From assembly GCA_022844205.1 (NCBI GenBank), contig JALHMF010000005.1, positions 62,001 through 126,000 of the forward strand: a stretch of 64,000 nucleotides of DNA, given 5' to 3'. The notes under the pieces were generated by a model. It worked only from the letters and a program-made list of their open reading frames with translations, did not search any database and was not told where the DNA came from. The translations under genes and the position numbers were made by a program. Of the stretch, positions 15,745 to 24,119 are shown piece after piece; position 1 is the first letter of the stretch; each line of letters begins with the position of its first letter. This DNA is from Xanthobacteraceae bacterium (lineage in GTDB: Bacteria > Pseudomonadota > Alphaproteobacteria > Rhizobiales > Xanthobacteraceae).

Positions 15745-16956
15745 TTACGCCATCGCCTTCTTCAGGTTCTCGTCGATCTTGTCGAGGAACCCGGTGGTGG
15801 AAAGCCACGGCTGGTCCGCGCCGACGAGCAGCGCCAGATCCTTCGTCATGTGGCCGCTCTCGACGGTGTCCACGCAGACCTTCTCCAGCGTATGCGAGAA
15901 TTTGGCCAGCGCCGCGTTGTTGTCGAGCTTGGCGCGATGGGCGAGGCCGCGCGTCCAGGCGAAGATCGAGGCGATCGAATTGGTCGATGTCTCCTTGCCC
16001 TTCTGGTGCTCGCGGTAATGGCGCGTCACCGTGCCGTGCGCGGCTTCCGCTTCCACCGTCTTGCCGTCGGGCGTCATCAGCACCGACGTCATCAGGCCCA
16101 GCGATCCGAAGCCCTGCGCCACCGTGTCGGACTGCACGTCGCCGTCGTAGTTCTTGCAGGCCCAGACATAACCGCCGGACCATTTGAGTGCGGCCGCGAC
16201 CATGTCGTCAATCAGGCGGTGCTCGTAGGTGATTTTTTTCTTCTCGAACTCGGTTTTGAATTCGGAGTCGAAAATCTGCTGGAAAATTTCCATGAAGCGT
16301 CCGTCGTACTGCTTCAAGATCGTGTTCTTGGTCGAGAGATAAACCGAGTAGCCGCGGGCGAGGCCGTAATTCAGCGATGCGCGCGCGAAGTCGCGGATGC
16401 TGTCGTCGAGGTTATACATCGCCATCGCGACGCCGGAGCCCGGCGCCTTGAACACTTCCTTCTCGATCACCTTGCCGTCGGTGCCGGTGAACTTGATCGA
16501 GAGCGTGCCCGCGGTCGGAAACTTGAAATCGGTGGCGCGATACTGGTCGCCGTAGGCGTGGCGGCCGATGATGATCGGCTTGGTCCAGCCGGGCACGAGG
16601 CGCGGGATATTCTTGCAGATGATCGGCTCACGGAAAATCGTGCCGCCGAGAATGTTGCGGATGGTGCCGTTCGGCGAACGCCACATCTCCTTCAGACCGA
16701 ATTCCTTCACGCGGCCTTCGTCGGGCGTGATGGTCGCGCATTTCACCGCGACGCCGACTTCGCGCGTCTTGTTCGCGGCGTCGATCGTCACCTGATCGTT
16801 CGTCCGGTCGCGATACTCTACGCCGAGATCGTAATACAGCAGGTCCACATCGAGGTAGGGATGGATCAGCTTGTCCTTGATGAGCTTCCAGATGATGCGG
16901 GTCATCTCGTCGCCGTCCATTTCGACGACGGGATTGGCAACCTTGATCTTCGCCAT
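15745..16956 (-). CDS. icd: NADP-dependent isocitrate dehydrogenase
   Basis: TCA-cycle enzyme converting isocitrate to 2-oxoglutarate and CO2 with NADP. The 403-residue protein is of the dimeric eukaryote-like type usual in Alphaproteobacteria: [36 protein letters not shown]-like substrate loop ([20 protein letters not shown]), [15 protein letters not shown], and the metal/NADP motif [26 protein letters not shown] followed by [12 protein letters not shown]. Length is standard. It ends 25 bases after the composite repeat, and convergent orientation with alaS explains the repeats between them. Confidence 0.96.
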
Positions 16957-17139: not shown

Positions 17140-18309
17140 TCACGACAGGCGGGCCGCCAGTCTGCGCAAGCTCCGCCGGATATCCAGCCAAAGGATCAGC
17201 CCATACGCACGACTTGCGGGTTTGCCGGGGTAAGCCAGCCTGAGCAGGCGTTGCAGCGTATGCCGGTTTTCCATGCGATGAAAACGTTCGACGGCGTTAC
17301 GGACGCCGAACATCTCGACGAGGCCCGGCCAGTTGCGGGCAAAGAGTTCAGCCACAAGCGGATGGGCGAGGGCGGCGGACGCGGGCTTGTTTCCGTCGCG
17401 GATGGATAACAACGCGATATCGATCAGCCGAAGAGCGACATGGGTGCGCAGCCGTTCGGCCCGCTCGAAGCAGACCCGCGCGCGTTCGAACTGGCGCAGC
17501 GGGAGATTTGCAGGATCGCCTGCGAGCTCAGTCCCGTTTCGGCCGGGAACAAGATCGCGGGACATCGGCAGATCGATCAGCATCGAGCCGCCCAGGAAAT
17601 GACAAAGCGGCAGGAAGTGCTGTTCGACATCGAGCAAAGCGAGCGTCTCCGCATCCGCCATCGGGCGCGCGAGATCGAGCACGAAGCGCCGGTAGACCTG
17701 GGGCGGGCGCTTGACCCAGAGCATGTTCAGCAGTCCCGGCTGCGAAATGTGGACCGCTTGCATGAGGCTTTCATAGGCGGCTTCCGTAACGGAGCGCACA
17801 CGCGGAGCGACATCGGGCTCGCGCATCACGCCTGTGTTGCCCGGCGATGTGAAGCCGCCATTCACGCCCGGAACGAAACCGGAAGCTCTGGCAACGCTCA
17901 TGGCCACGCTCGAGCGTGCCCCGATTTGAGCCTGCACATGCATCGATGCAAATTCGGGGAACAGCGTCACGCTGGAGTCGAGGAAGCAGATGAATTCTCC
18001 CTTTGCATGGTCCAGTCCCAGCAATGCGTCCTGCATCGGGCTGCTTCCGGAATCCGACATCAGGGCCGTGAAGCGGGGGTCGCCCGCAAACTCATCCTGC
18101 ATGGAATTGCGAGCTGTCCGTTTAATGACGACGATGAATTCCGCGTACGGGTAATCCTGCGCGCGCAGCGAAGCGATCGTTTCCCGCAAGCCGCCGGATG
18201 GAGCGGCATCCTCGTAAAGCACGAAGGACAAAACCGGCATGCGCACCGCCGGCGGCAGGGGGCTGCCGCAAAGGCTCCCGGTTGGTTGGCCGCTCGTGCC
18301 GGTGTCCAT
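17140..18309 (-). CDS. Degenerate GT2-like glycosyltransferase paralogue (fourth gene of the operon)
   Basis: A 389-residue protein built like the other three in the operon: VLSFVLYEDAAPSGGLRETIASLRAQDYPYAEFIVVIKRT, then GEFICFLDSSVTLFPEFASMHVQAQ and HFLGGSMLIDLPMS. The alignment with the intact paralogues is clear, but the nucleotide-binding VDDGS is replaced by VIKRT and the metal-binding DSDD by DSSV (residues 111-114). It therefore probably lacks normal transferase activity and may be a scaffold, acceptor-binding or regulatory partner. It starts four bases after the preceding gene ends. No signal peptide or membrane helix is seen. Confidence 0.7.
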   Translation of the reverse strand: MDTGTSGQPTGSLCGSPLPPAVRMPVLSFVLYEDAAPSGGLRETIASLRAQDYPYAEFIVVIKRTARNSMQDEFAGDPRFTALMSDSGSSPMQDALLGLDHAKGEFICFLDSSVTLFPEFASMHVQAQIGARSSVAMSVARASGFVPGVNGGFTSPGNTGVMREPDVAPRVRSVTEAAYESLMQAVHISQPGLLNMLWVKRPPQVYRRFVLDLARPMADAETLALLDVEQHFLPLCHFLGGSMLIDLPMSRDLVPGRNGTELAGDPANLPLRQFERARVCFERAERLRTHVALRLIDIALLSIRDGNKPASAALAHPLVAELFARNWPGLVEMFGVRNAVERFHRMENRHTLQRLLRLAYPGKPASRAYGLILWLDIRRSLRRLAARLS

Positions 18310-18313
18310 GGGC

Positions 18314-20626
18314 TTACCAGCCCCGCGAACCGGACAGCGGAATCAGCGGCCGCCGCGCGATCTGCCACGCGATCCATGCGCCGGCGCGCAGAGGCGAGCG
18401 CAGCCCGGGCTGTGACGCCGCGAGACGCCAGATGTCGCGCAGCCGCATGTAGCGCGAGAGGTCCTCAAGCAGTTCACGCTCGCCGAATTCCCCGCACAGC
18501 GAACGATACTGTTCGCTCAGGGCGCCGAACACGGGCGGCGACGGGAAGTAGGCCAGCCTGTGCTCGAGCAGGACCTGAAGGATAATTTCGAGCGAGGGCC
18601 AAATCCGGCTTCGGGAAATTTCGCGATCGAGTTCGTTCCTCTTCCGGATGAAGGACGCGGCTATCTGGCATTTCATTTCCTGCCCCCGCTCGGTGAACAG
18701 GATCGAATTTTTTCCGAAACGCTGCATGCGCGGCAGGGCGCCGGACATGTTCAGAGGATGATTACGATAGAATGAAAGCGGCCAGTCGATCGTGACCGTT
18801 CCGGCCATGAGATGGCAGATTCGAAGAAAGTGATTGTCGGGCGAGTAGCCGCGGAAGATTCCATCTGGAAGTACCCGCATACCCAGATCAATGGCCGAGC
18901 GGCGAAACATATTGGAAGAACCGGGCGACCAGATCCATCCGCCCTGGCTGCGTTCGCAAAGATAAAGTCTTGCCGCAAGGCGTTCGAAGGCCGCATCGTT
19001 CATCCATTCTAGGCGCACCGCCTTCATCTGATCCCGTTGAAGCGATACCGCGGCTGCATTCTCGGAAATGCAGGGTTCGTTGCCGGCGATGAGCGCGCCG
19101 TCCGCCGAAATCAGACAACTGCTGCTGCTGGTCAGGCCGGCCGGAGAAGGAGCGGCAAGATGCGCCTGCACATGGGCGGTGGCGTATCCAGGCTGGAGAT
19201 AGTCATCGCTATCGATGAACGCCAAGAATTCGCCGCGCGTAAGCGGAATGGCGTGGAGGGCGGCCGCGAGGTGCCCGCGGTTCTCCGGCAGGTGCTCGAT
19301 GCGAAAGCGCCGGTCGTTTGCGGCATGACGCTCAATCACCGCCTGGCTGCCGTCGTCCGAGCCATCGTCGACGACGATGCATTCGAAATTCGGATAATCC
19401 TGCGCCTTGATGGAATCGATGGCGGCCCCGACGAAGCGCGCGTAGTTGCAGTTGATGAGGATGAAACTGACGAGCGGTGCCTGGGCCGGAGGAATATCCA
19501 CTCTGGCCGGTTTTGATTCAGCGTCCGATGAGGGCAGCTTCTTGCCGGCGAGTTCGCGAAAAAATTGAAATAGTTTTTGCCTGTTCGGAGCAATGGACAG
19601 CTTTTCGGGAAAGGCTTGCGTCAGCGTGCCCGCGGACAGGAGGGCGCGATCGATCATCGCTGCGGTCAGCGGCGGCTCATAGAGATGCAGCCAGCCTTCG
19701 GGCAATTGCGATTGCAGATCGCGGGCAAACGGGGTCGCGGGTGTCAGCACGGGACGGCGTGCGCTCAGCGCGTGCACGATCGAGCCTGAATGCAGATACC
19801 GGCGGAATGGCGTCACGATGAGATCGGCAGCGAGGGTGAACTGGCGGAGTTCGGCTTCCGAGAGATGGCGGACCGCAAGGGCCACGCGCTGGTCCTTTTT
19901 CGCGGTCTCACGCAATCCCAGGATGAGGCTGGGCTCGGTCTGCTTCGGAAGGCCCGCCAGCAGCAGCCGCCGGTTATTGTCCGGTGACTCCGTAAAAATC
20001 CGCGCGAGTTCGTCGCTGCCCTTGTAGCGCGCGATGAATCCGAGCGATGCGATCACCTGCTGCGATGGCTGGAAACAGAAAGTTCGCCGCGCACCCTTTC
20101 GCTCTTTCTCCGTCCCGTCGGCGCCGGGGAACAGCGGATGCCAGATATGAAGCGCTGGCTTGCCCCGGATCCCGGGGATCGCGTTGTGCACGACTTCGAG
20201 CGTCGATGGACTGAGTGTCACGATTGCATCGACGAGTTGCGCGAGTTTCCGCCGGTAATAGTGCCGCCACAGCATGCGGCGGCCGCGCGGCAACTCATGC
20301 GGTTCAAGGTCGTGAACCATCCAGACCAGTTTGGTGCCGTTGTCTTTCCACGCGCGCAGCCTGCGCAGCACGAAACGGACGTCGCTGATCGGGAAGATTC
20401 CACTGGAAAAGACAAATTCGGGCCAGTGAATCAGCAGAATATCGGCTTCGGGGTCCGGTCTCGACCTGTGCATGCTCTGGATGGCGGAAACCTCGACCGC
20501 CGAAGTGCTGGTGCCGAGCAGCAACTCGATGAACTTGTTGTTGTTGGAGAGATAAGGCCATGACGCGATGCGCAGGCGTTTCCCGCCCGCATCGGCTTCG
20601 TTGTCCAGTCTGCCGGCTGCGGTCAT
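18314..20626 (-). CDS. Bifunctional glycosyltransferase: GT-B N-terminal half fused to GT2 C-terminal half
   Basis: A 770-residue two-domain protein. Residues ~18-360 look like a GT-B glycosyltransferase (LRIASWPYLSNNNKFIELLLG, GTKLVWMVHDLEPHE, SLGFIARYKGSDELARIF, HSGSIVHALSARRPVLTP). Residues ~384-600 are a GT2/GT-A domain with VSFILINCNYARFVGAAIDS, VDDGSDDGS (419-427) and the metal motif DSDD (472-475). Both domains look catalytically complete. A C-terminal segment has SPGSSNMFRR and HLMAGTVTIDWPLSFYRN, shared with the other operon members. The start overlaps the upstream gene by ATGA. Likely acts in synthesis of a surface polysaccharide; donor sugars are unknown. Confidence 0.8.
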   Translation of the reverse strand: MTAAGRLDNEADAGGKRLRIASWPYLSNNNKFIELLLGTSTSAVEVSAIQSMHRSRPDPEADILLIHWPEFVFSSGIFPISDVRFVLRRLRAWKDNGTKLVWMVHDLEPHELPRGRRMLWRHYYRRKLAQLVDAIVTLSPSTLEVVHNAIPGIRGKPALHIWHPLFPGADGTEKERKGARRTFCFQPSQQVIASLGFIARYKGSDELARIFTESPDNNRRLLLAGLPKQTEPSLILGLRETAKKDQRVALAVRHLSEAELRQFTLAADLIVTPFRRYLHSGSIVHALSARRPVLTPATPFARDLQSQLPEGWLHLYEPPLTAAMIDRALLSAGTLTQAFPEKLSIAPNRQKLFQFFRELAGKKLPSSDAESKPARVDIPPAQAPLVSFILINCNYARFVGAAIDSIKAQDYPNFECIVVDDGSDDGSQAVIERHAANDRRFRIEHLPENRGHLAAALHAIPLTRGEFLAFIDSDDYLQPGYATAHVQAHLAAPSPAGLTSSSSCLISADGALIAGNEPCISENAAAVSLQRDQMKAVRLEWMNDAAFERLAARLYLCERSQGGWIWSPGSSNMFRRSAIDLGMRVLPDGIFRGYSPDNHFLRICHLMAGTVTIDWPLSFYRNHPLNMSGALPRMQRFGKNSILFTERGQEMKCQIAASFIRKRNELDREISRSRIWPSLEIILQVLLEHRLAYFPSPPVFGALSEQYRSLCGEFGERELLEDLSRYMRLRDIWRLAASQPGLRSPLRAGAWIAWQIARRPLIPLSGSRGW

Positions 20627-21729
20627 TTGCCGACTGTATCCAATCGATTGCGTACCGGCATCCAGAAGCGCCGCTTGAATTCCGCGCGGGCGAGATGCCA
20701 GAAGGCGGCAACGGGTATTTTGCCGAACGACCGCAGCAAAATCCGGCGGGCCGGCGCCGGTCCCGCCAGCGCGATCAATGAGCCGACTATCCGCTTGGTC
20801 CCGAAATGCGCCAGCAGCGATGGGAGTTGCGCGGCGATCAGGCGCTGGATGTCATCGCGGCGAAAGGCGGCGCGCGGAGGCGAGCCTTCCTCGCGCATCA
20901 ATGCGAGGACGGCGGGCCAGTATCGGCCGGGCACATAGCGGGTGAGGTGAGGCGCGCCGGAAAGAACCGCGGACAGTTGTGTCCGCTTTTCGAGATCGCG
21001 GTCCTTGCTCTGCGTGGAAACCGGTTCTGCGCCTGCGATTGAGATCGAACCGCCGAGAAAATGACTGAACGGCAGGAGCATCGCCTGCAGCGGAATGGAT
21101 GTTAGCGCGCCGATTCCGGCCTTGTACAGGATTGCGAGTGCCTCGCGCCGATAGAGGTTTCGCGAGGATACGGCGTTCAGCCACCGTTTTTCGGCGGGGT
21201 GAAATCTCCGCGCGCTCTCGCGCATGGCCTCGAAAGCCGTGTCCGCGATCGAATCCAGCCGCACGGCTTTCGATGCGGGAAGCAAGCCGGGCTCCTGTCC
21301 GGCTGCTTCCATATCGGGCGCGCGCTCGAAGCTGACCGCGACCGGCTCGGCGGCGGCAAGATGCAGCTGCACATGCGCGGAGATGAAATGCGGCGGTAGC
21401 GCAGTTTGCCCGTCGATGACCGCAACGAACCGGCCTTGGCACTTGTCGAGCAGTGAAAGAATGCCGCCGTCTTGTTGCGGTACGATCTTGAAACGGGTGT
21501 CGCCGGAAACCGCATCGAGGAATGATGCGGCGCGATCCGGCGGCAAACCCGCGTCAGCCAGCAAAAATTCAAGGCGCGGATAGTCTTGCGCGCGAAGGGA
21601 GTCGACCAGCGCCAAGGCCGCATGCGGGGTGTCCGGCCATTCGCAGAGCGCGGATACAAGCGGAAGGCGGATGGCGGCGGACAGCGACGAAAGCCGAACC
21701 GAGCCGATCTTCGCTGCGGCTTCATTCAT
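20623..21729 (-). CDS. Degenerate GT2-like glycosyltransferase paralogue (second gene of the operon)
   Basis: A 368-residue paralogue of the operon's GT2 proteins: LPLVSALCEWPDTPHAALALVDSLRAQDYPRLEFLLADAG, GRFVAVIDGQTALPPHFISAHVQLHLA, SRNLYRREAL and HFLGGSISIAGAEPVS. The DXD-type motif reads DGQT (106-109) and VDDGS reads ADAGL, so catalysis is doubtful. I start it at the ATG at 21729, whose ATGA overlaps the stop of the preceding gene; a GTG nine bases upstream is an alternative. Its 3' end overlaps the next gene by ATGA as well, so it is translationally coupled on both sides, which argues that it is kept as a working subunit. Confidence 0.7.
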   Translation of the reverse strand: MNEAAAKIGSVRLSSLSAAIRLPLVSALCEWPDTPHAALALVDSLRAQDYPRLEFLLADAGLPPDRAASFLDAVSGDTRFKIVPQQDGGILSLLDKCQGRFVAVIDGQTALPPHFISAHVQLHLAAAEPVAVSFERAPDMEAAGQEPGLLPASKAVRLDSIADTAFEAMRESARRFHPAEKRWLNAVSSRNLYRREALAILYKAGIGALTSIPLQAMLLPFSHFLGGSISIAGAEPVSTQSKDRDLEKRTQLSAVLSGAPHLTRYVPGRYWPAVLALMREEGSPPRAAFRRDDIQRLIAAQLPSLLAHFGTKRIVGSLIALAGPAPARRILLRSFGKIPVAAFWHLARAEFKRRFWMPVRNRLDTVGK

Positions 21730-22826
21730 GGCGTCCACCGGAACGAATGGATGGCAGCCGGAACGCGGCGCGAAAATTCCGCCGCACCGAATTCCCCCAT
21801 CAGCGAATCCCGATGCTCGCGCAGGGCGTCGCGCACGGGGGCGGCGGCCATTCTTCTGCGCGCCAGCGCCTCCGAACTTCCGAGCAGACGCTCGAGCACG
21901 AGCCAGAAGCGCTCCTCAACTTCCGCGCCCAGAAATTCATGCCGGCGACGGATAAACTGCGCCGCCTGCTGCAGGCGTTGTTCCATATAGAGCGGCAGCA
22001 CTTCCGCGCGCGAGCGGTCGAAGGCGGACATCGTGGGAAGTTCCGCCCACTGGTTTCCGCCCTGAATTCGATAGGCCGAGAGGGGCTCATGGATGAGGAG
22101 CGAGCCGGAGAGCAAATGACAGGCGCGAAAGAAAAGATTGTCGGCGGCCTGTCCAGGCACCATCCGCTCGGGTGCGAGGATCCGCGCGCGCATCAGCCCG
22201 TCACGGCGAAAGACATTCGAAGTGCCGGGCGAAAGCGGCGCTCTGCGTTCGTGGCGCTCGATCAGTATCCGCCCGGATTCCTGCGCTGGAAATACAGGAC
22301 GAAACGGAGGCGAAAGCAGCGATCCGTCGTCCGCGACTTCAACGATATCACTGTTGGAGAGTCCGGCATTTCTGTTGTTCGCAAGCCTCTCGCCTACATG
22401 CACGGAAGCGTAATACGGAAAGAGGATGTCATCGGAATCGACAAAACAGACAAACTCGCCCCTGATCTCATCCAGGGAGCTTAGCGCCGCGCCGAGCTGG
22501 CCGATATTCCGGGGAAGGTGCCGGGTGCGCATCCGTGTGTCGCGCGCGGCGTGACCGTCGATGATGTCCCGGCTGCCGTCGGTGGAGCCGTTGTCGATCG
22601 CGATGCATTCCCAGTGCGGGTAGTCCTGCGCCGAAATCGAAGCGAGGGTCTCGCCGACGAAGCGGGCGTGATTCCAGCAGATCAAAACGAAGGAAAAAAG
22701 CGGCGGATCACCGGCGGCTGGGGCACCCGGTACATTGGCTTTACTGTGGGCAGGCAGAGGCAAGCGTTGCTCTTCGGACCAAAAACGAAAAACCGCGGCG
22801 TGAATGCAGGGGCAATGGGTTTTCAT
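21726..22826 (-). CDS. GT2-family glycosyltransferase (first gene of the operon)
   Basis: A 366-residue protein with an intact GT-A fold signature: PLFSFVLICWNHARFVGETLASISAQDYPHWECIAIDNGSTDGS (IDNGSTDGS at 78-86) and GEFVCFVDSDDILFPYYASVHV with the metal-binding DSDD at 130-133. Further motifs SPGTSNVFRR and HLLSGSLLIHEPLSAYRI match the C-terminal half of the 770-residue gene. No membrane segment. The ATG at 22826 lacks a strong ribosome binding site; the N-terminal 40 residues are not family-like. It is the promoter-proximal gene and diverges from trmJ, with only 84 bases for both promoters. Confidence 0.8.
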   Translation of the reverse strand: MKTHCPCIHAAVFRFWSEEQRLPLPAHSKANVPGAPAAGDPPLFSFVLICWNHARFVGETLASISAQDYPHWECIAIDNGSTDGSRDIIDGHAARDTRMRTRHLPRNIGQLGAALSSLDEIRGEFVCFVDSDDILFPYYASVHVGERLANNRNAGLSNSDIVEVADDGSLLSPPFRPVFPAQESGRILIERHERRAPLSPGTSNVFRRDGLMRARILAPERMVPGQAADNLFFRACHLLSGSLLIHEPLSAYRIQGGNQWAELPTMSAFDRSRAEVLPLYMEQRLQQAAQFIRRRHEFLGAEVEERFWLVLERLLGSSEALARRRMAAAPVRDALREHRDSLMGEFGAAEFSRRVPAAIHSFRWTP

Positions 22827-22910
22827 ATCATGCCGTACGCGGCGAAGGTACTTGCCGCCGGTGCGGGACAAAATGCTAAAAGTCCGCGCGAACGCGGAAA
22901 AGGTACTCGT

Positions 22911-24119
22911 ATGCCAGGCGCAGGCACCGATCGCACGCAGGAATGGCCGGCGACGGGCGGACCGGTCGTGATCCTGGTCGAGCCGCAGCTCGGCGAGAAT
23001 ATCGGCGCCTGCGCGCGCGCAATGGCGAATTTCGGCCTGCGCCGGCTGCGGCTGGTGAAGCCGCGCGACGGCTGGCCCAATCCCTATGCGCAACGATCGG
23101 CGGCGGGCGCGGATGTGGTGCTCGAAGGGGCCGAATTGTTCGACACGCTGAAGGAGGCGATTGCCGACTGCACGCTTCTGCTGGCAACGACCGCGCGCGA
23201 GCACGGGCAGGTGAAGCCGGTTCTTTCGCCGGAACAGGCGGCATTTGAGATGCGGGGACCGATCGCCGCGGGCGAGACGGTCGGGCTGATCTTCGGCCGC
23301 GAGCGCAACGGGCTCGAGAACGACGAGATCGCACTTGCGGACAAGATCGTCACCTTGCCGGTAAACCCGGCCTTCTCGTCGCTCAATCTTGCGCAGGCGG
23401 TGCTGGTGCTTGCTTACGAATGGTTCAAGCTCGCGAGCGGCAGCGAACTGCCCTTTAAGATGAATCCCAAATCCGGCCCGGCGCCGAAGCAACAGTTGCA
23501 CGCTTTCTTCGAAGGACTGGAGAAGGAGCTTGAGCGGGTCGATTTTTTCCGCCCGCCGGAAAAGCGCGAGGTGATGACGATCAACCTGCGCAACCTCATT
23601 CATCGCATGTCGCCGAACCATCAGGACGTGCAAACCCTGCATGGCATCGTCCGCGCACTGGTCGAGGGCCGCAAGGGTCCGGCGGAAGGCGGCATCCTGC
23701 GTGGGGGTGAGGCGGAGTTGCTGCGCGAGCTTCTGAACAAACACGCCGCGCAGGAAGACTCGGGCACCGCACCGGGCAAGGGGCTCGCGCGGCTGTTGCG
23801 GCGGAATCCGACGCAGGCCGAGAAAATTTTATGGAAGGCGCTTTCCAATGACCGGCGCTTTGCCGGCGTGTTCAAGCGCAACGTGCCGATCGGCCCGCAG
23901 GTCGCGGATTTTCTGGCGCAACCCTTGCGGCTTCTGCTCGAAATCCTGCCGGATGACGAGCCTGCCGCCGCGAAGGATGCGCGCGCCGCCAAGCGGGCAT
24001 GGCTGGAAGCACGGAACTACCGGATGCTCGATATTCCTTCCGTGCAAGTGGAGCGGAACCTGGCAGCGCTTCTCGAACGGATCGCGCTGGAGATCGAGGA
24101 CGCCAGCGCGCCCAAGTGA
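22911..24119 (+). CDS. trmJ: tRNA/rRNA methyltransferase of the TrmJ/SpoU family with a DUF559-like C-terminal tail
   Basis: Residues 1-260 are a SPOUT methyltransferase: GPVVILVEPQLGENIGACARAMANFG, GLIFGRERNGLENDEI (126-140) and LPVNPAFSSLNLAQAV (149-164), the S-adenosylmethionine-binding knot. TrmJ 2'-O-methylates position 32 of tRNAs. Residues ~297-395 form an extra domain (RNPTQAEKILWKALSN, FKRNVPIGPQVADF, KRAWLEARNYRMLDIPSVQVERNLAALLERIA) that resembles DUF559 endonuclease-like proteins, but the usual IELDGGQH core reads LEILPDDEP, so nuclease activity is unlikely. The ATG chosen begins the family core; the fused tail is unusual for TrmJ. Confidence 0.85.
   Translation: MPGAGTDRTQEWPATGGPVVILVEPQLGENIGACARAMANFGLRRLRLVKPRDGWPNPYAQRSAAGADVVLEGAELFDTLKEAIADCTLLLATTAREHGQVKPVLSPEQAAFEMRGPIAAGETVGLIFGRERNGLENDEIALADKIVTLPVNPAFSSLNLAQAVLVLAYEWFKLASGSELPFKMNPKSGPAPKQQLHAFFEGLEKELERVDFFRPPEKREVMTINLRNLIHRMSPNHQDVQTLHGIVRALVEGRKGPAEGGILRGGEAELLRELLNKHAAQEDSGTAPGKGLARLLRRNPTQAEKILWKALSNDRRFAGVFKRNVPIGPQVADFLAQPLRLLLEILPDDEPAAAKDARAAKRAWLEARNYRMLDIPSVQVERNLAALLERIALEIEDASAPK

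Follow-up and report, generated by a model that had tools for sequence, protein, structure and literature searches.

A four-gene operon of a Xanthobacteraceae bacterium couples GT2 glycosyltransferases with degenerate, possibly non-catalytic GT2-like proteins

Results and discussion

The locus described here is a glycosyltransferase operon on the reverse strand of a 64,000-nucleotide stretch of DNA from a Xanthobacteraceae bacterium (order Rhizobiales; GenBank assembly GCA_022844205.1, contig JALHMF010000005.1, positions 62,001 to 126,000), hereafter the window, whose own numbering is used throughout. The operon opens with P1 (21726..22826), coding for a glycosyltransferase family 2 (GT2) protein of 366 amino acids (aa) with its catalytic motifs present, and continues with P2 (20623..21729; 368 aa), GT2-like with a degenerate active site, P3 (18314..20626; 770 aa), in which a GT-B-like N-terminal half is followed by a C-terminal GT2 domain with intact motifs, and P4 (17140..18309; 389 aa), which is again GT2-like and degenerate. 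P1 and P2 are joined by an ATGA overlap, as are P2 and P3, and a gap of 4 bp separates P3 from P4. The four proteins align along their length, with 25 to 41% identity to P1. A first-pass annotation, made from the sequence without database searches, had given the same lengths, the coupling and the two ATGA junctions, all of which agree with the open reading frame (ORF) coordinates. It had also read the order as intact, degenerate, fused, degenerate, and this is borne out by the motifs. The scores for Pfam family PF00535 were 73.7 bits for P1, 91.2 for P3, 23.7 for P4 (above the cut-off of 23.3) and 22.1 for P2 (slightly below it). The xSxHV motif that it assigned to all four proteins was found in all except P3, which reads ATAHV. 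The frames and the coupling behind its argument, that decayed genes would not stay coupled and in frame, are real; open frames by themselves are weak proof, because long antisense ORFs are common at 62% guanine-plus-cytosine (GC) content, and it is the homology that carries weight.

The motifs reported at first pass for each protein were confirmed in the translations. P1 carries the donor motif IDNGS, the metal motif VDSDD and the base motif ADN, and the GT2 half of P3 carries VDDGS and IDSDD; P1 and the C-terminal half of P3 each combine a PF00535 domain with the donor Asp, the DxDD and the base Asp by which GT2 enzymes were recognised. The late loop of P1 reads YRIQGGN, with Q at a position where 33 of 34 others carry H. 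In P2, the donor motif reads ADAGL, with its first Asp retained, the metal motif is IDGQT (DSDD to DGQT), the base Asp is replaced by Gln and the YRxHGxN late loop is absent. In P4, the donor motif is VIKRT (VVD to VVI), the metal motif LDSSV (DSDD to DSSV) and the base Asp is replaced by Glu. P2 and P4 both retain the first Asp of DxDD, and both lack the metal-binding DxDD as well as the catalytic base Asp. The N-terminal half of P3, described here as GT-B-like, matched Glyco_transf_4 and Glyco_trans_1_4, both below the Pfam cut-offs; no other fusion of a GT-B-like with a GT2 domain was noticed among the family members with sequences examined.

The pairing of active with degenerate genes was also found elsewhere in the order, in a search of the kind that the first-pass annotation had suggested. 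Relatives were identified in 7 of the 14 genomes of genus g110, which belongs to another family (f16) of the same order as the window (E 1e-15). There, the genes lie on the icd strand in the order A (active), B (degenerate), C (active, with DSDD) and then icd, the motif of A being DTDD, or DADD in G354. Five of the 14 genomes (G277, G415, G426, G430 and G431) contain B, with 37-67% identity across the five species. A adjoins B in all five, the G430 contig holding only the end of A, and C accompanies B in four, not being found in G426. The B frame is intact in four of the five genomes; in the fifth, G430, whose assembly is in 720 pieces with 6% contamination, the break is either genuine or an assembly artefact. 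In trees and counts the G430 B is represented by the ORF running into the break, so that its last residues are possibly out of frame.

An alignment of 42 relatives was used to compare 35 proteins with the usual motifs and 7 degenerate ones, a partial gene product of 177 residues (G1003) being counted wherever it was lettered. The first donor Asp, the donor Ser and the first, third and fourth positions of DxDD were each conserved in 35/35 rows with the usual motifs, and the base Asp in 34/34, one row being too short. Among the degenerate rows the corresponding counts were 4/7 for the first donor Asp, 0/7 for the donor Ser, 6/7, 1/7 and 0/7 for the three DxDD positions and 1/7 for the base Asp. 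Loss of the motifs is not a chance effect, since the third and fourth DxDD positions are kept in all 35 usual rows against 1/7 and 0/7. The structural positions, namely the E after QDYP, the H of HxQ, both R of YRR and the G of GGS, were conserved in 7/7 degenerate rows. Three columns are acidic throughout in the six complete degenerate proteins: the E after QDYP, which is also kept in 33/35 active rows, the first acid of DxDD and one more that is considered below.

The consequences of these substitutions can be gauged from TarS, a GT2 enzyme of solved structure. Replacement of D91, D93 or D94 of its D(91)xDD motif by Ala abolishes activity, and adding the donor does not significantly stabilise these mutants; mutating the proposed base (D178N) severely reduces activity (PMC5156392). 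A profile of the active members aligned to TarS across the DxDD motif, and TarS numbers were transferred to P2 and P4 from this alignment for the DxDD stretch and from motif order for the base. On this basis D93, D94 and the base would correspond to Q, T and Q in P2 and to S, V and E in P4. As the residues essential in TarS are replaced, P2 and P4 are unlikely to use a TarS-type mechanism.

Structure models of P2 and P4 were built from alignments of seven sequences, giving confidence values (predicted local distance difference test, pLDDT) of 70.1 and 73.5, respectively. Values below 50 were confined to the N-termini, residues 136-149 of P2, residues 144-163 of P4 and one short later loop in each. 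Foldseek matched the P2 model to hyaluronan synthase, RmlT, TarS, TarP and CgT with E values of 2e-7 to 1e-5 and template modelling (TM) scores, normalised to the query, of 0.36 to 0.47, from which the overall superposition is judged to be loose. The P4 model gave VIA-align Z scores of 20.1 with RmlT, 20.0 with CgT and 18.8 with TarS. P2 and P4 are thus predicted by modelling to have a GT-A core, in answer to the structure prediction suggested at first pass.

Selection on the degenerate genes was examined through B by the method of Nei and Gojobori with bootstrapping, P2 and P4 having no relative close enough for the ratio of nonsynonymous to synonymous substitution (dN/dS) that the first-pass annotation had put forward as a check. 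The one well-measured pair, G415/G277, has a dS of 0.70 and gave a dN/dS of 0.286 for B (bootstrap 0.21-0.38), 0.310 for C (0.23-0.40) and 0.147 for A. For residues 1-130 of B, the N-terminal core in which the donor and DxDD sites lie, the ratio was 0.186 (0.10-0.30). The remaining B pairs, for which the G430 sequence was cut shorter, gave 0.29-0.45 and are rough because of saturation at dS 1.04 to 1.90. B is under purifying selection, like active C, as measured on the single pair G415/G277. Judged as possible pseudogenes, P2 and P4 keep frames that are open and alignable along their length, and B, with the dN/dS given above, is disrupted in one of five genomes.

Trees of the family were computed with all columns and without the motif columns, omitting G242, G709, G786, G1143, G1145 and G1155 throughout and the partial G1003 from the motif-free trees and topology tests. 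In the motif-free tree, P2 and P4 grouped with B, C, an Aminobacter protein and G191 (support 95/93), and P1 grouped with P3 (85/67). All degenerate genes formed one group in the best such tree (69/90) and in 70% of 200 bootstrap trees. When P4 was omitted, P2 grouped with B (91/96). When P2 was omitted, P4 remained in the wider clade (92/99), beside the long-branched G191 (49/57, weak), the degenerate label then needing two changes and a single origin being recovered in just 5% of bootstrap trees.

Approximately unbiased (AU) tests, whose p values serve only as guides because the groups were partly picked after a tree and P2 and P4 have long branches, rejected a clade of all four window genes (p 0.014) and the placement of P4 with P1 and P3 (p 0.018). 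The description of the four genes as paralogues is therefore not supported if it is taken to mean a local fourfold duplication. Placement of P2 with P1 and P3 (p 0.18) and an independent origin of the window pair, with B and C forming a group that excludes it (p 0.31), were not rejected, and P2 with B alone fitted equally well (p 0.48). Overall, the trees favour a degenerate origin shared by P2 and B; the place of P2 is less sure and the nearest neighbour of P4 is ambiguous between trees. In our reading, the alternation would join two old subfamilies in one operon and would not be a fresh decay of local copies.

The operon is bounded by two genes that serve as conserved anchors of the locus. 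Downstream on the same strand lies a gene of the isocitrate dehydrogenase family, icd (15745..16956), and on the opposite side a divergent gene on the forward strand (22911..24119) codes for a TrmJ-like SpoU methylase with a C-terminal DUF559 domain. The 84 bp that separate P1 from the divergent trmJ start codon, ATG (22827..22910), are likely to hold the promoter. The operon, bounded in this way by icd and trmJ, includes no gene for a polymerase, flippase or transporter. It has a GC content of 62.3%, equal to that of its icd flank; the trmJ flank has 64.6% and the whole window 62.4%. At third codon positions the operon genes reach 70-74%, below icd, alaS, trmJ and murI (79-87%), and P2 and P4 agree with P1 and P3 in codon-position GC. 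The DUF559 match covers residues 289-392 of the stretch searched. The trmJ open frame has at least 399 aa in 29 of the 36 matching genomes of the window's family and is shorter, at 270-344 aa, in 20/20 f16 genomes; the C-terminal extension may be particular to the window's family, the domain itself having been read in the window.

The array lies next to icd in eight genomes including the window, one ORF away in the case of G426, and trmJ lies on its far side in seven, the trmJ of G430 being on a separate contig. Among 79 genomes searched, 74 had an icd match. In 69 of these, trmJ is the divergent neighbour of icd at a distance of no more than 10 kb; in some, at least, of the remaining five, the pair is split between contigs. 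The icd-trmJ gap ranged from 144 to 5963 bp in the 69 genomes, with varied cargo where inspected. A search of 40 other junction stretches (profile E 1e-3, ORFs of at least 80 aa) found the array in none of them and a generic GT2 ORF in one (G242); for G058, in which icd and trmJ are not neighbours, the stretch covers the icd end only. A locus special to the array is weakened as an explanation by the number of genomes with this neighbourhood and by the varied gaps and cargo, which indicate that the site is permissive across the order. The shared position may be inherited, or arrays may have inserted more than once at a site that tolerates them. In six loci (L034, L035, L036, L037, L039 and L059), an out-of-frame stretch upstream of A resembles a gene for a small membrane protein, which occupies the icd-trmJ spacer in other g110 genomes and which looks HdeD-like by eye.

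The wider family proved sparsely distributed. Matches were obtained in 13/397 genomes of the order (E 1e-20), 4/385 of the class (E 1e-30), 6/341 of the window's own family (E 1e-30), 7/28 of the family of G415 (E 1e-40), 4/103 of the family of G088 and 1/8 of the family of G191, counts which include the window genome where it was in the set and several of which scored only a few first-look candidates per genome. A scan of named genomes with P2 as query gave no match. With alignment A3, L068, L072 and L073 were taken as family members among the matches listed (80 loci), and named relatives include Aminobacter and Methylocapsa. The plasmid search returned a single weak match. The family members read beyond the window and g110, a set that does not include the G242 copy (L022), retain the motifs of donor, DxDD and base (G709 and G786 checked by eye, G1143, G1145 and G1155 by pattern and eye). 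The Aminobacter anthyllidis GT2 (L068) has no second family member in the 13-kb stretch analysed. At L038 (7474-9375), a GT2 of the family is fused to a Methyltransf_24 methyltransferase domain and adjoins a second GT2. A search of open-access papers found nothing on this array within the terms used and among the entries listed.

Based on these data, we propose that the operon would make two GT2 enzymes, P1 and P3, the latter also carrying a GT-B-like domain, together with two non-catalytic proteins of GT2 fold, P2 and P4, from the B/C subfamily that includes the degenerate f16 genes. P2 and P4 would most likely assemble with the active paralogues and transfer no sugar themselves; their part would be to bind or orient the acceptor, to stabilise the complex or to modulate it. 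We infer in this way the loss of transfer activity in P2 and P4, the assembly of a complex, the binding of an acceptor and the glycan that would be made. We consider it evenly balanced whether P2 and P4 are indeed non-catalytic GT2 subunits partnering active paralogues. A broader proposal appears doubtful, though possible: a lineage of GT2 pseudo-glycosyltransferases older than the split between the two bacterial families would have been kept as non-catalytic subunits of GT2 hetero-oligomers encoded between trmJ and icd, and in the window lineage it would have split into two distinct inactive subunits that alternate with active ones. The overall reading of the first-pass annotation, in which degenerate members would serve as subunits or adaptors of a putative surface-glycan assembly complex, is partly supported, by the coupling of degenerate to active genes, the shared position in a second family and the selection on B there, and is given up as regards local duplication.

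Several observations weigh against the subunit proposal. Some of them concern the active site: the base Asp survives in B of G430, the DxD in B of G431 and the first donor Asp in P2 and three B proteins, P4 has a Glu at the base position, and the third acidic column (P2 D163, P4 E176) is kept in 7/7 degenerate rows against 11/32 lettered active rows. This column leaves a small opening for an alternative acid, which the first-pass annotation had named as a finding that would speak against it; judged by sequence columns, the residue is also present in some active proteins. P2 and P4 could then be active by changed chemistry, either as metal-independent GT-A enzymes, for which the bacterial GT6 enzymes provide a precedent (PMC3961637), or with another donor and other catalytic residues, and the constraint on the N-terminal core of B, equal to that of active C, would suit such a function. 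Nevertheless, the DxDD, the base and the late loop have been lost jointly and differently in each member, with no new conserved set in their place, and we regard changed chemistry as unlikely.

Other observations concern the retention of the genes. P2 and P4 have the longest branches in the all-column tree (2.22 and 2.16), and no longer do so once the motif columns are removed. B is missing from G354 and G403, which carry A and C at most 75 bp apart, and is frame-broken in its last third in G430, so that missing or frameshifted degenerate genes, which the first-pass annotation had named as speaking against it, are seen in part of the sample. The operon was not found in four sampled congeners of the window genome (three less than 90% complete and one more than 90%), the icd-trmJ spacer being 164, 167 and 595 bp in three of them and the fourth having no icd match, and neither P2 nor P4 had a close homologue among the genomes searched. 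These points would fit P2 and P4 being genes on the way to loss and still open by chance, with B likewise often discarded. Against this stand the dN/dS that B shows in its closest pair, which is bounded above by 0.38 and equals that of active C, the presence of B in five species at 37-67% identity with four of five frames intact, the ATGA coupling of the window operon and the codon-position GC that P2 and P4 share with P1 and P3, and we consider ongoing loss improbable. It is very unlikely, in our view, that the degenerate proteins are stand-alone binders of sugars or nucleoside diphosphate sugars, acting as regulators or lectin-like proteins in the same pathway outside any complex. Their core fold is predicted and is constrained in B, as such a role would require, but B adjoins A in every genome that has it, and in the window the genes for P2 and P4 are overlapping or almost contiguous with their active neighbours, and this arrangement favours co-assembly.

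Inactive partners of glycosyltransferases are known from accessory Sec systems, in which GtfA has a GT-B fold. GtfB, the catalytically inactive partner of GtfA, has been described as a chaperone and acceptor-binding component, GtfA itself being a GT4-type enzyme (PMC12809243). The window and g110 likewise have an inactive-looking paralogue beside an active-looking glycosyltransferase, as judged by motif; unlike GtfB, the degenerate members described here are GT2-like with a predicted GT-A fold and number two in the window. Since the models of P2 and P4 resemble GT-A enzymes and not GT4-type or GT-B proteins, the GtfA-GtfB system would be an analogue of which they are not members. In plant wall glycan synthesis, IRX9 is a glycosyltransferase-family protein that lacks DxD and is nevertheless needed, and a structural role in a complex with active proteins has been proposed for it (PMC4132061). 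The likeness to IRX9 (and GAUT7) lies in a DxD-less partner proposed alongside active proteins; IRX9 differs in being a plant GT43 protein, whereas the window proteins are bacterial, GT2-like and encoded in one operon. GtfB and IRX9 are best viewed as analogues of P2 and P4, not as their relatives.

Closer in predicted fold are TarS, TarP and RmlT, which are among the nearest solved structures to the P2 and P4 models. TarS shares its DxDD motif with the active members, and differs in being an active homotrimer, with no inactive paralogue mentioned in the excerpts consulted (PMC5156392). The A. anthyllidis GT2 and the C proteins of g110 belong to the subfamily of P2 and P4 in the motif-free tree and differ from them in having intact catalytic motifs.

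Conclusions

Inactive partners of glycosyltransferases are known from few systems; what would be new here is that they are GT2-like, have a predicted GT-A fold and occur twice in one operon. The example of P4, which scores above the Pfam cut-off without the catalytic residues, indicates that a PF00535 match alone is not proof of an enzyme. If the proposed reading is true, this four-gene operon would provide a compact system for testing what an inactive GT-A protein contributes to a glycosyltransferase complex, whether by holding the acceptor, by assembly or by control.

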